A stretch of DNA of 50,477 nucleotides from IMG/VR virus record IMGVR_UViG_3300020166_000003, positions 1 through 50,477 of that record. One strand, written 5' to 3'. A program made the position numbers and the translations under genes. Positions 37,102 to 41,086 of the stretch are shown piece by piece. The notes under the pieces are model-generated. The model was not told the DNA's origin and did not search any database. It was given only the letters and a program-made list of their open reading frames with translations. Source of the DNA: a virus. Position 1 is the first letter of the stretch. Each line of letters starts with the position of its first letter.

Positions 37102-37130
37102 TTGACAGTGGACTGACTGCCATGTACAAT
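37102..37130 (+). promoter_or_regulatory. Promoter of the ubiquitin-like conjugation block
   Basis: TTGACA (37102-37107), 17 bases, TACAAT (37125-37130). The upstream CCGAATTGTTG resembles that of the other early promoters. It is the only clear promoter before the four-gene block at 37241-40430. Confidence 0.78.
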
Positions 37131-37148
37131 GCACCACATCGAGACACC

Positions 37149-37174
37149 GACATTTACTTTACTTATTAAATGTC
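37149..37174 (+). other. Leader hairpin upstream of the ubiquitin-like gene
   Basis: GACATTTA (37149-37156) and TAAATGTC (37167-37174) pair perfectly over 8 bp with a 10-base loop. It lies about 20 bases after the -10 box, in the 5' untranslated region. It could be an operator or an RNA control element. There is no T-run. Confidence 0.55.
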
Positions 37175-37240
37175 ACGACAGAACACTGGGATTTGCCCTT
37201 TGTATTTTACTTTTAATTTTAATTTAACGGAGCTTTATAT

Positions 37241-37462
37241 ATGTATACTATCGTAATCGCAGACATCGCCAATTCTTCTAGTGACGACCTTAAGCAAGTC
37301 CAAGTTGAGTCAGGTTCTACAGTAGGGCAAGCACTTGCTCAAGCTGGTGTGACCTTATATCCTGGGCAGAAGGTAGCCTTGAACGGTGTAAATACTACAC
37401 TCGAAAGCCCTATCAATGTTACTGGCATGTTGTCTGTTACTGGCGAAGCTAAAGCAGCCTAG
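37241..37462 (+). CDS. Ubiquitin-like beta-grasp protein, 73 aa
   Basis: A 73-residue protein with the strand-helix-strand order of ThiS/MoaD/ubiquitin folds: MYTIVIADI, then LKQVQVESGSTVGQALAQAG, then GQKVALNGVNTTLESPINVT. The segment VALNGV-x-x-x-L matches the last beta hairpin of MoaD-like proteins. It ends MLSVTGEAKAA, without a terminal Gly-Gly. Trimming after SVTG by the neighbouring peptidase would expose a Gly end, as many ubiquitin-like proteins need. It stands first in a row with E2-like, E1-like and JAB genes. It is probably the conjugated modifier or a sulfur carrier. Confidence 0.6.
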   Translation: MYTIVIADIANSSSDDLKQVQVESGSTVGQALAQAGVTLYPGQKVALNGVNTTLESPINVTGMLSVTGEAKAA

Positions 37463-37497
37463 TAATTAACCCACAATAACTAAGAGAGGACTCTGGA

Positions 37498-38781
37498 ATG
37501 ACTTTTAAATTAGACGAATACATGAGTAGGTACTATGGTGTTACACCTAGCAGTGTTTACCAACATTCATTTGGGATTGCCCAACAAATAGTCAAGTTAG
37601 AGTCCCAACTTAGGGAGCTAGAGGGTAGAGAAGCTGTAGGTGTTTTGCTTATTAAGGAGCAGTACGCCGCGTATAAACTCCTACCCCTTAGTGACCCATT
37701 AAAATGGAGATGGAAAGAATGTGTGTCTAGGCTTATATCACAGTATAAGCTGGATGTAGACACATTAAGGGAACAAAGCCTTAGACTGCCCCAGCTCAAG
37801 GCTAAGTTAGCTATGGCTACCCCATCACCAGAAAACGAACCGAATTATATTAGTGCCGAGAAGTATGCAAAGGCGTTTGAACAGTTACCAGTATCACTAG
37901 CCCTTGAAGGGGTTTACATTAAACCTACCAAGCCTAATAGAGTTTGGTTGGTTATTACTATAGGCGACCATGTTATAAGACCTGCTAGTAATTTTTTAGA
38001 AGCCCTAGAGGAGGGGCGAGATTTTACAAAGAAAGGCTGGGATCTCACGACTATAGCGCAGTTTGCTCAACAAGGTATCCCTAGAAAGCCTATAACCTTT
38101 GCCATCAATGTGATCTTTAATGACCAAGACGACATGGCTACTGACGTAGAACTTGGAGTATTAACAGGGCATCCCACTAACATTAACTCTAATGAGGCTA
38201 TATTTTGGGACGGTGATAAAGTTTATGAGACTACCGAGATTGAAGAAGGGAGTGAGTATGTGTGTGGCGCCCCAAGCTGTGATGCTACTGTAGTATTCCA
38301 CCCACACATTAGGACTGAGCTATCCGAGTATGAAATATATAGTAGGAGGATGGCATGTTTAGGATCTTACATGACCCCGATGGCTAAAGCAATTAGGGAT
38401 AACAAGCCTACAGGACTTGGGCTATACCTTATAAATTATTTCCAAGAATTTGACCTTACAGATACATGGGGTAGGTTTGGACTTGCACGAATGTTCCGAC
38501 CTAGTGACTTGGAACCTGTAGTCGAGACACCTAAGGTAGAGGCTGTACAAGACTGGCGCCCTTCCTTTATATATCACCAAGACACTAAGATTCTAACCCT
38601 ACTCAACCAGCCCACAGAACAGCAAACGTATGAATTATACGGAAGCTATGGGGATGGTCTTATGTTTATTAGGGAGGGAAGCACCTCAGATAAGGAGGTA
38701 GACTTATCTGATACCGTATATACTTGGATATGGCTTAGAATTGTACCCCGCTATGGGAAAATAGTAACACTTAAACTTTAA
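37498..38781 (+). CDS. Candidate E2-like conjugating protein, 427 aa
   Basis: The N-terminal 110 residues are helical (VKLESQLRELEGREAVGVLL). Beta strands follow (NRVWLVITIGDHVIRPA and PITFAINVIFNDQ). Next is the signature FHPHIRTEL (His268 and His270), and ACLGS with Cys287 about 17 residues later. Two helices follow, with YLINYFQEFDLTDTWGR. E2 enzymes have HPN...CL in this order, and prokaryotic E2-like families keep HPH...C. Lying between ubiquitin-like and E1-like genes supports an E2 role with Cys287 as the thioester residue. The C-terminal 90 residues are a separate beta-rich domain. The full E2 fold is not proven. Confidence 0.5.
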   Translation: MTFKLDEYMSRYYGVTPSSVYQHSFGIAQQIVKLESQLRELEGREAVGVLLIKEQYAAYKLLPLSDPLKWRWKECVSRLISQYKLDVDTLREQSLRLPQLKAKLAMATPSPENEPNYISAEKYAKAFEQLPVSLALEGVYIKPTKPNRVWLVITIGDHVIRPASNFLEALEEGRDFTKKGWDLTTIAQFAQQGIPRKPITFAINVIFNDQDDMATDVELGVLTGHPTNINSNEAIFWDGDKVYETTEIEEGSEYVCGAPSCDATVVFHPHIRTELSEYEIYSRRMACLGSYMTPMAKAIRDNKPTGLGLYLINYFQEFDLTDTWGRFGLARMFRPSDLEPVVETPKVEAVQDWRPSFIYHQDTKILTLLNQPTEQQTYELYGSYGDGLMFIREGSTSDKEVDLSDTVYTWIWLRIVPRYGKIVTLKL

Positions 38782-38793
38782 CAGAGGATAACC

Positions 38794-39513
38794 ATGACAG
38801 ACTTACATTCTTTATCAGGCTTAAGGTCTTTAGAAATTATAGACTTTGAGAAATACGAACATATACCTATTCATATTGTAGGGCTTGGGGCAGTAGGCTC
38901 TAAAGCCTTTGAGCAATTAGTATGCTTAGGGGCAAGGCACTTAGTATTGCATGACTTTGATACTGTCGAGCATCATAATACTCACAATCAACTCTTTGGA
39001 GTGGGACATGTGGGCATGACTAAAGTGGACGCTTGTTTAGATTGGGTCAAGTATAAGTATGGCGACCAGTATGTAGGTAAAATTGAAACCTTTAACCACA
39101 AAGTTACTGAGGACACTGAGTTAGTTGGTGCGGTATTGATGTGTGTTGATACCTTTGATGGCAGGAGAGCAGTAATACAAGCTTCTATAGCCTCTCAAGG
39201 TGTTGGGATAGTGGTCGAGGGGCGGTGCGCTCCTAAGTTCTTTGAAGTACGGACTATCAATCCTTTCAATACTGAGCAAGTCGAAGGGTTCTTAGGTTCT
39301 TTAGGAGACGATAGCACTCCCGATACTCATGTATCTATTTGTGGTGCGCCTATCTCCTTTTCTCCTGTCATGTCAGCTTGTGGCATAATCATGGTGGGGC
39401 AGTTAATTAGCGCACTAAAAAATGGAGGGGTAGCCCCATCACAAGAACACTTAAACATTTTTATGCAGCCATTACTAATGGTTGGCGGTCAATCTTTAAC
39501 AGGAGAAGTATAA
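38794..39513 (+). CDS. ThiF/E1-like adenylating enzyme, 239 aa
   Basis: A Rossmann-fold E1 enzyme that would adenylate the C-terminus of the ubiquitin-like protein. The nucleotide loop is IHIVGLGAVGSKAFE (Gly30, Gly32, Gly35). LHDFDTVEHHNTHNQLF follows (Asp54, Asp56, Asn62), then GHVGMTKVDA (Lys77) and CVDTFDGRR (Asp119). The Arg in the usual NxxRQ is Asn here, a notable change. Cys183 (VSICGAP) or Cys196 (SACG) could be the thioester residue. The zinc CxxC pair of ThiF/MoeB is missing. The stop overlaps the JAB start (TAATG), linking the two products. Confidence 0.85.
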   Translation: MTDLHSLSGLRSLEIIDFEKYEHIPIHIVGLGAVGSKAFEQLVCLGARHLVLHDFDTVEHHNTHNQLFGVGHVGMTKVDACLDWVKYKYGDQYVGKIETFNHKVTEDTELVGAVLMCVDTFDGRRAVIQASIASQGVGIVVEGRCAPKFFEVRTINPFNTEQVEGFLGSLGDDSTPDTHVSICGAPISFSPVMSACGIIMVGQLISALKNGGVAPSQEHLNIFMQPLLMVGGQSLTGEV

Positions 39514-40430
39514 TGGGAACACCTAAGGCAGAAGCACTACCAATTAAAGACGCAATCATACCTGACGTATGGTTCTCTACGTTAGCATGGGCTAAGATAC
39601 AAGACTTAATAACCTCACCACATAAAAAATCTAACGAGATTACTTGGTACGGTGACATTGAAAAGACTGATGTGGGAGACTTATACATTAACGATGTCTT
39701 TGTGCCAACCCAAGAAGTTACAAGGGTGTCAACGTCTATCGAAGATTTTAATGTAATTGTACCTGAGGCAGTAGAAGCGGGGCTTAACCCTATGAAACTT
39801 AAGGCTTGGTTTCATCTACATCCTAACGGCATGTCCACTAGCCCTAGCAGTGTTGATGTGGAACAAACTGATGAATACCTAAAGACTTGGAGCTATATCC
39901 TTAGAGGTATCATAAACAACGAGGGTGAGTTTCAATTAGATTACTTTGATAAGGATGCGGGGTTACAGTATAGTAATCTTAGACACTTCATTGACTTTAG
40001 TGATGTGTTAGACAGCGAAGAATTTGAAAAGGTTATAAAAGAACGTGTCACCATCAAAACTCCCGTCTCTCTTGCTAAGAAAGCAGGCTCTACCTACAAC
40101 ACTTACAGCTATGATTACGCTCAAGACAGTAGAGGCAACCAAGACACTGTATATGTAGGGCTACTGGATACTAGGGCTGCCCATGTAGATATATTAGATG
40201 CTTTTGTAGAGGGCGACAGTACTCTAGTAGAGACGGCAACCCACGTTACTACAATGTCCCTTGCAGAAGCTATTGAAAACGGGAGGCTCAAGACTACACC
40301 TTCTACTTGGGAGGCTTTCAAACGTAAGATAGCTATGACTCCTGAATTTTTTGATGTCATGTTCCCAAGTGTTTCTGAGCAAATGAATAAGAGGATTAAA
40401 AATGATAAGACTAAACGCAGTAGTAAGTAA
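39513..40430 (+). CDS. JAB/JAMM-type metallopeptidase, 305 aa
   Basis: The N-terminal half shows the JAMM zinc-peptidase pattern: NEITWYGDIEK with candidate catalytic Glu42, DLYINDVFVPTQEVTRVSTS, then FHLHPNGMSTSPSSVD with His101, His103 and Asp115. The spacing to the Asp is one residue longer than the classical HxHP-x6-SxxD. Such enzymes cut ubiquitin-like proteins from targets or trim their precursors. The C-terminal 150 residues are extra and mostly helical. The gene follows the E1 gene directly, as in known bacterial ubiquitin-like operons. Confidence 0.85.
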   Translation: MGTPKAEALPIKDAIIPDVWFSTLAWAKIQDLITSPHKKSNEITWYGDIEKTDVGDLYINDVFVPTQEVTRVSTSIEDFNVIVPEAVEAGLNPMKLKAWFHLHPNGMSTSPSSVDVEQTDEYLKTWSYILRGIINNEGEFQLDYFDKDAGLQYSNLRHFIDFSDVLDSEEFEKVIKERVTIKTPVSLAKKAGSTYNTYSYDYAQDSRGNQDTVYVGLLDTRAAHVDILDAFVEGDSTLVETATHVTTMSLAEAIENGRLKTTPSTWEAFKRKIAMTPEFFDVMFPSVSEQMNKRIKNDKTKRSSK

Positions 40431-40764
40431 AATCTATGGTGATGGTAGTCGTATCAGGGCTATAGTCTTGAATACTGCAAGTAGGGACACCATGACAGTT
40501 AAGACTGAAGATAATTGTATTCTCGTATGGAGGAGGAGCGATACCGAGTATGTAGGTACACTAGATCCAGAAACTAGGGTACGTGTTAAGAATATGTACG
40601 AGCCTAACTATAAAGTAAGAAGGCTTATAACTATAGTGCCTAGCAGGATGTATAGTGGTAAGCTTTGTATGACTAGAAGCCCTAAGGGTGAGATAGAAAC
40701 TTTCTCGTACATGAATTTCTTTAAGGGCATTAAGGCTCTGGAGGACAGCGATGGACAATCCTAA
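40402..40764 (+). CDS. Hypothetical protein after the JAB gene, 120 aa
   Basis: The gene overlaps the JAB gene by 29 bp. The protein looks all-beta and basic (MIRLNAVVSKIYGDGSRIRA, then DTMTVKTEDNCILVWRR), ending with a helix (YMNFFKGIKALEDSD). No family is recognised. Its overlap suggests translation with the conjugation block, and it may be an accessory factor or just a neighbour. Confidence 0.65.
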   Translation: MIRLNAVVSKIYGDGSRIRAIVLNTASRDTMTVKTEDNCILVWRRSDTEYVGTLDPETRVRVKNMYEPNYKVRRLITIVPSRMYSGKLCMTRSPKGEIETFSYMNFFKGIKALEDSDGQS

Positions 40765-41086
40765 ATATATTCAAGCCCTTAAAGAGGGCAAGGTTCCTAT
40801 GGACTACCTACCCTATACTTGTTTTGCTGAGGACTCATTGTGTCATAAGCATGGGGCAGATAAGTATGGCATCAGGAACTATAGGATCAGTAAAATATTA
40901 GCCAGTACATACGAAGGGGCTATCATGCGACACTTTGTAGCTTGGGCTAATGGTGAGGACTTAGACCCTGACAGTGGGCTTAGTCACTTGACACACTTGA
41001 GGGCTTGCTGTGCTGTAGTCTTAGACTCGCAGAAGCATGGAACTTTCTTAGACGATAGGCTTAGAGCCGAGGAGAAAAAGGTATGA
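40751..41086 (+). CDS. dATP/dGTP diphosphohydrolase-like (DUF5664-type) protein, 111 aa
   Basis: The central motif, HGADKYGIRNYRISKILAST, then IMRHFVAWANGEDLDPDSGL and SHLTHLRACC, is typical of a small helical phage family related to nucleotide pyrophosphohydrolases (Pfam dATP/dGTP diphosphohydrolase N-terminal). It could adjust dNTP pools or remove modified nucleotides. The ribosome site is GGAGG. It overlaps both neighbours, so it is part of a tight operon. Confidence 0.75.
   Translation: MDNPKYIQALKEGKVPMDYLPYTCFAEDSLCHKHGADKYGIRNYRISKILASTYEGAIMRHFVAWANGEDLDPDSGLSHLTHLRACCAVVLDSQKHGTFLDDRLRAEEKKV

Follow-up and report, generated by a model that had tools for sequence, protein, structure and literature searches.

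A phage-encoded block of ubiquitin-like modifier, E2-like, E1 and JAB genes that resembles a complete protein tagging kit

Genes for a ubiquitin-like modifier (Ubl), an E2-like protein, a JAB peptidase and a ThiF protein are found together in the PRTRC plasmid system, and ubiquitin-like conjugation in bacteria has lately been studied mainly as a defence against phages. Among these defences, Bil conjugates a Ubl with E1- and E2-type enzymes, and type II CBASS combines Cap2, an E1-E2 fusion, with a CD-NTase. The tail assembly proteins I and K of Lambda and T1 provide a phage-borne Ubl and JAB. The group 6 prokaryotic Ubl-E2-E1-JAB operons (Iyer, Burroughs and Aravind 2006) comprise a rhodanese-free E1, an adjacent JAB with an intact JAMM motif, an E2-like protein with a conserved His and Cys and a small beta-grasp protein. 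Their type 6d E2s lack an upstream His, the 6e E2-like domains lack the Cys, and the only phage case in the same source is tail assembly (PMC1779556). In crAss001, the genes gp76-gp79 of the replication module encode a linked E1, JAB, E2-like protein (HSH...CTG) and Ubl-like protein, of which only a ThiF protein ('thiamine biosynthesis') and a metalloprotease are annotated.

The window, which here means the whole 50,477-base viral contig of IMG/VR that was analysed, contains four successive plus-strand genes which look like an apparently complete kit for adding and removing a ubiquitin-like protein tag (Table 1). The original prediction of a phage-encoded Ubl, E2, E1 and JAB block in one operon is borne out by the ORF coordinates and is supported for each of the four parts, with the genes also linked in relatives. 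All four frames are intact, and the E1 and JAB ORFs overlap by one base. Upstream of the block lies a strong sigma-70-like site, which by consensus scoring ranks first in its region. The features of the group 6 operons listed above are all shared by the block; however, the E2s described here have an upstream HPH motif and a coiled-coil fusion, with no match to Pfam E2 models in any of 60 E2-like sequences, and the highly conserved Gly at the Ubl C-terminus of type 6d is absent from the window modifier, which ends KAA, whereas its relatives end KGN. No match to BilA, BilB or BilC was found, and BilD matched at 3.9e-5 over a partial E1 core, more weakly than several E1-E2 models did. Unlike in type II CBASS, the E1 and E2 are separate genes, and there is no CD-NTase among the flanking window proteins scanned. 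The PRTRC_ThiF model scored 31.5 bits, below its cut-off of 144.75, and no other PRTRC model matched. Relative to the Lambda and T1 tail assembly proteins, the window adds an E1 and an E2, has no detected NlpC domain and places the genes away from those of the tail. The crAss001 genes differ in their order, Ubl-E2-JAB-E1, and in a Ubl-like protein that is extended C-terminally after KSG.

Table 1. Positions of cassette features in the window and of tandem modifier ORFs in other loci (the latter given as locus:positions)
Feature	Position	Strand	Basis or remark
Sigma-70-like promoter site TTGACA-17-TACAAT	37102-37130	+	11 of 12 positions agree with the consensus; identified by this agreement alone
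Ubl ORF, 73 aa	37241-37462	+	ORF list
Modifier tail GEAKAA	37442-37459	+	Relatives have GAKGN-type tails; terminal Gly replaced by Ala72
E2-like ORF, 427 aa	37498-38781	+	ORF list; no Pfam or PHROG family
E2-like protein: N-terminal helical hairpin and C-terminal UBC-like domain	37498-38781	+	UBC fold from the model of a relative
HPHI...ACLG motif of the E2 (residues 268-289) with putative catalytic Cys287	38299-38364	+	60-sequence alignment
E1 ORF (ThiF family), 239 aa	38794-39513	+	ORF list; PF00899
Candidate thioester Cys183 of E1	39340-39342	+	Cys in 160 of 160 E1 sequences with a residue there
JAMM/JAB metallopeptidase ORF, 305 aa	39513-40430	+	ORF list; family profile
JAB Glu42	39636-39638	+	Aligned with Glu in most other rows
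JAMM motif HxHP...S..D: His101, His103, Ser112, Asp115	39813-39857	+	22-sequence alignment
Tandem modifier ORFs	L172:4991-6142; L067:11846-12325; L107:938-1417		Two to four domains
Tandem modifier ORFs	L134:74-520; L116:8677-9093		Two to four domains

Its sequence leaves no doubt that the 239-aa protein belongs to the ThiF family of adenylating enzymes: Pfam returned PF00899 at E=2.2e-18, with ThiF as the only domain and no rhodanese, UBA5 is the best PDB match, and the anticipated GLGAVG and DFD...N motifs are both present. Conservation among E1 relatives extends over the nucleotide-binding glycines, R11, Asp54/Asp56, Asn62, Gln66, Lys77, Asp119, Arg124 and Arg144, and the candidate thioester Cys183, judged by eye, occupies the position of the UBA5 catalytic cysteine. 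At the site of MoeB Arg73 all family E1s have Asn or Gly, indicating a chemistry that is not identical to that of MoeB; Asn at this site was part of the pattern that found most of the E1s, and in a set selected without that pattern, the crAss-like E1s, the residue is Gly in 54 of 55.

The identities of the JAB and the Ubl are confirmed by family profiles. No Pfam model matched the 305-aa protein; an iterative profile started from it gathered approximately 160 relatives, mostly adjoining an E1, and the resulting family profile matches RPN11, CSN5, BRCC36 and AMSH (best 9.8e-8). A profile built without the window found the window JAB at 6.4e-28. Glu42, His101, His103 and Asp115, which had been named as the JAMM residues, align with the catalytic residues of relatives, and the two His, the Asp and Ser112 are invariant in 22 sequences. 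For the 73-aa protein, an iterative search returned approximately 60 small proteins, mostly near E1s, and a profile built without the window sequence recovered it at 6.2e-9. Given that the family profile matches the structures of archaeal SAMP2 (4.4e-5), MoaD and ThiS, the beta-grasp assignment of the modifier family, which had been proposed for the window protein, is supported.

The E2-like protein required a less direct route. The HPHI...ACLG motif with Cys287 is present as had been described, and His270, Cys287 and Gly289 are invariant in 60 aligned sequences. A profile of 15 relatives, picked by an HPH...C.G motif near E1s and with the window left out, found the window protein at 9.5e-9, a value which overstates the evidence because the seeds were chosen by the motif that provides most of the score; with the HPHI and CLG residues masked, the window protein scored 6.6 bits against 4.2 for the best of 200 shuffles, which is not significant alone. 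AlphaFold2 modelled the whole window protein as a helical hairpin with an uncertain core (pLDDT 67), and a PDB structure search with this model was dominated by the hairpin or coiled coil and returned no E2; likewise, the E2 alignment profile returned coiled coils from the PDB sequences. A trimmed relative, L155, was modelled confidently in place of the hairpin-dominated protein (pLDDT 95.9, pTM 0.89), and its best PDB matches were nearly all ubiquitin-conjugating enzymes, with a best E of 5.6e-3, none reaching 0.001, and TM up to 0.55. In a viral structure library the same model matched annotated viral E2 enzymes as well as proteins of crAss-like phages; when the profiles of the window E2 and the crAss E2s were compared directly, no link emerged. 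The UBC fold expected around Cys287 was recovered in the modelled relative and not in the weak model of the whole window protein. Based on the relative's model and the alignments, the E2 family is UBC-like; motif, operon position and profile place the window protein within it. In a separate viral locus, five E2-like ORFs lie in a row (L121:7912-13221).

Linkage of these genes recurs widely. The E1 is present in 78 GenBank phage records, which include crAss-like Bacteroides phages, Flavobacterium phages and the jumbo phages of Xanthomonas and Erwinia, and versions of the cassette occur in the cultured phages crAss001, DAC15, FpV4 and PhiXhv-12. Queries with crAss E1s gave 49 viral loci, most of them ordered E2-JAB-E1. 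Scanning viral contigs with a degenerate DNA pattern for D.D.[VI][DE].HN..NQ gave at least 120 loci, and 119 of the 120 listed have a family E1, most with an adjacent JAB. In the 75 viral loci with enough flank, JAB was found in 74, the E2 profile in 31 and the Ubl profile in 19, the latter two profiles being unable to detect the crAss versions. The window order is repeated in L088 and also in L078, where the Ubl was missed by the profile. Confinement of the cassette to phages was considered and rejected: the same pattern gave 117 loci in bacterial and archaeal genomes, with E1 in 112, JAB in 88, E2 in 79 and Ubl in 57. Some of these loci lie on contigs of hundreds of kilobases, and some may be prophages or misbinned phages. 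In a FastTree tree the window E1 groups, with support of 0.92, with viral L065, L090, L099, L103, L128, L132, L138, L163, L168 and L169 and the genome sequence L253, and in the wider tree viral and genome sequences are interleaved. Other searches were less productive: when the window E1 and JAB were each run singly against viral contigs, only a near-identical contig was returned, whose eight differences from the window, in runs of A or T, look like assembly noise and were left unused; a scan with the PhiXhv E1 returned nothing, and an alignment of seven diverse E1s contained no stretch conserved enough to serve as a query.

The genomic setting bears on the role of the cassette. In the window it lies in a plus-strand region; such genes as were identified for head, tail and packaging occupy the minus strand. 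Its neighbours in crAss001, FpV4, Dulem virus 41 and PhiXhv-12 include genes for primase, uracil-DNA glycosylase, ligase or topoisomerase, and transcription of the crAss001 replication genes takes place in the middle phase, from 10-30 minutes post infection (PMC8375218). Among the 25 PHROG families that are commonest in 89 flanking proteins, terminase is the sole structural family of those named by function; the mostly non-structural flanks in relatives argue mildly against the tagging of virion parts. Genes on either side of the block in the window lack relatives beside other E1s and were left out of the cassette. At window positions 40402-41086, an ORF of 120 aa with no known family overlaps the end of the JAB; next comes a 111-aa protein whose N-terminal domain is of the dATP/dGTP diphosphohydrolase type.

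Taken together, the block is probably a self-contained, reversible system for Ubl conjugation and deconjugation that acts in the early or replication phase. For the window phage we infer covalent conjugation, its timing and the following order of chemical steps. The E1 would adenylate the modifier C-terminus and then load the modifier onto Cys183, from which Cys287 of the E2 would receive it and pass it to a nucleophile on the target protein. Given that no E3 was seen, the N-terminal coiled-coil hairpin of the E2 probably confers target or partner specificity. The JAB would process the precursor of the modifier, in relatives by a cut that follows the Gly of K-G-N, and/or take the tag off. Since the cassette lies with early and replication genes, the proteins altered are probably those of the host or phage during takeover of the cell and copying of phage DNA. 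More tentatively, and with somewhat less than even confidence, the window cassette may be an Ala-ended variant within a large unrecognised family of Ubl conjugation systems, with KGN modifiers and coiled-coil-fused HPH...CLG E2s, that serves early or replication-phase tagging in unrelated phages.

It is possible that the cassette instead serves counter-defence, blocking or competing with bacterial Ubl defences such as Bil and type II CBASS, whose modifiers or targets it would sequester or edit. The window DNA polymerase is closest to those of the Pelagibacter phages HTVC115P and HTVC103P, and no cassette match was found in these or in Slicky01; this absence from the closest cultured relatives marks the cassette as accessory, a distribution that would suit such a role, and Ubl conjugation in bacteria does act against phages (PMC10097602). 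However, a counter-defence role is unlikely for three reasons: first, sequence closeness to Bil and CBASS is limited to the generic E1 core. Second, a full enzyme set with its own modifier exceeds the needs of a decoy. Third, the cassette sits with replication genes in several lineages.

The modifier tail raises a different doubt. In the family of approximately 60, the exact ending K-G-N occurs in 28 members and the looser K-G-x pattern in 38, with some ending K-G-G or K-G-A; in the window modifier, the nearly invariant Gly at position 72 is Ala. Trimming after SVTG, as originally predicted, is unsupported, since in the alignment the tail of the family coincides with the very C-terminus of the window protein, and a cut after SVTG would take away the flexible end needed to reach the E1. 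The Gly-to-Ala replacement, together with how far the window E1 lies in the tree from its closest relatives, raises the possibility that the cassette has decayed in the window phage, leaving remnants or non-covalent regulators; against four intact frames and conserved catalytic residues in the E1, E2 and JAB, this is distinctly unlikely. Within a working conjugation system, the Ala end may mean that charging is slower, that conjugates are harder to remove or that the tail is used differently. Five tandem modifier ORFs, two of them identical, each contain two to four beta-grasp domains in a polyubiquitin-like arrangement, and their presence in several loci implies a processing protease.

A role as sulfur carrier, in which E1 and Ubl would deliver thiocarboxylate sulfur for nucleotide, tRNA or cofactor modification and the JAB would trim the carrier, is highly improbable, for although the E1 and Ubl are ThiF/MoaD-like and JAB-Ubl-E1 sets occur in the sulfur pathways of some bacteria (PMC1779556), the block has an E2-like protein as a gene of its own, in which a His and a Cys are invariant, the window modifier has lost its terminal Gly, and a scan of ten window proteins from the block and its surroundings found no rhodanese or sulfur-metabolism gene.

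No prior description of this phage cassette was met in the open-access literature searched, which is weak evidence. The kit, present in many phages and some bacterial genomes, is largely unrecognised by family databases, and annotation misses the E2 family because it has no Pfam assignment. Phages, cultured model phages included, carry the full set, and whether viruses of bacteria tag proteins during infection is a directly testable question. A reverse transcriptase with a YTR[YF]ADD motif (PHROG 1423/2825), absent from the window, lies immediately downstream of the E1 gene at 19 viral loci (L079, L082, L083, L085, L087, L091, L101, L114, L131, L135, L148, L149, L153, L156, L158, L164, L166, L178 and L179), and in seven of these Rfam identified only tRNAs and one borderline abiF RNA.
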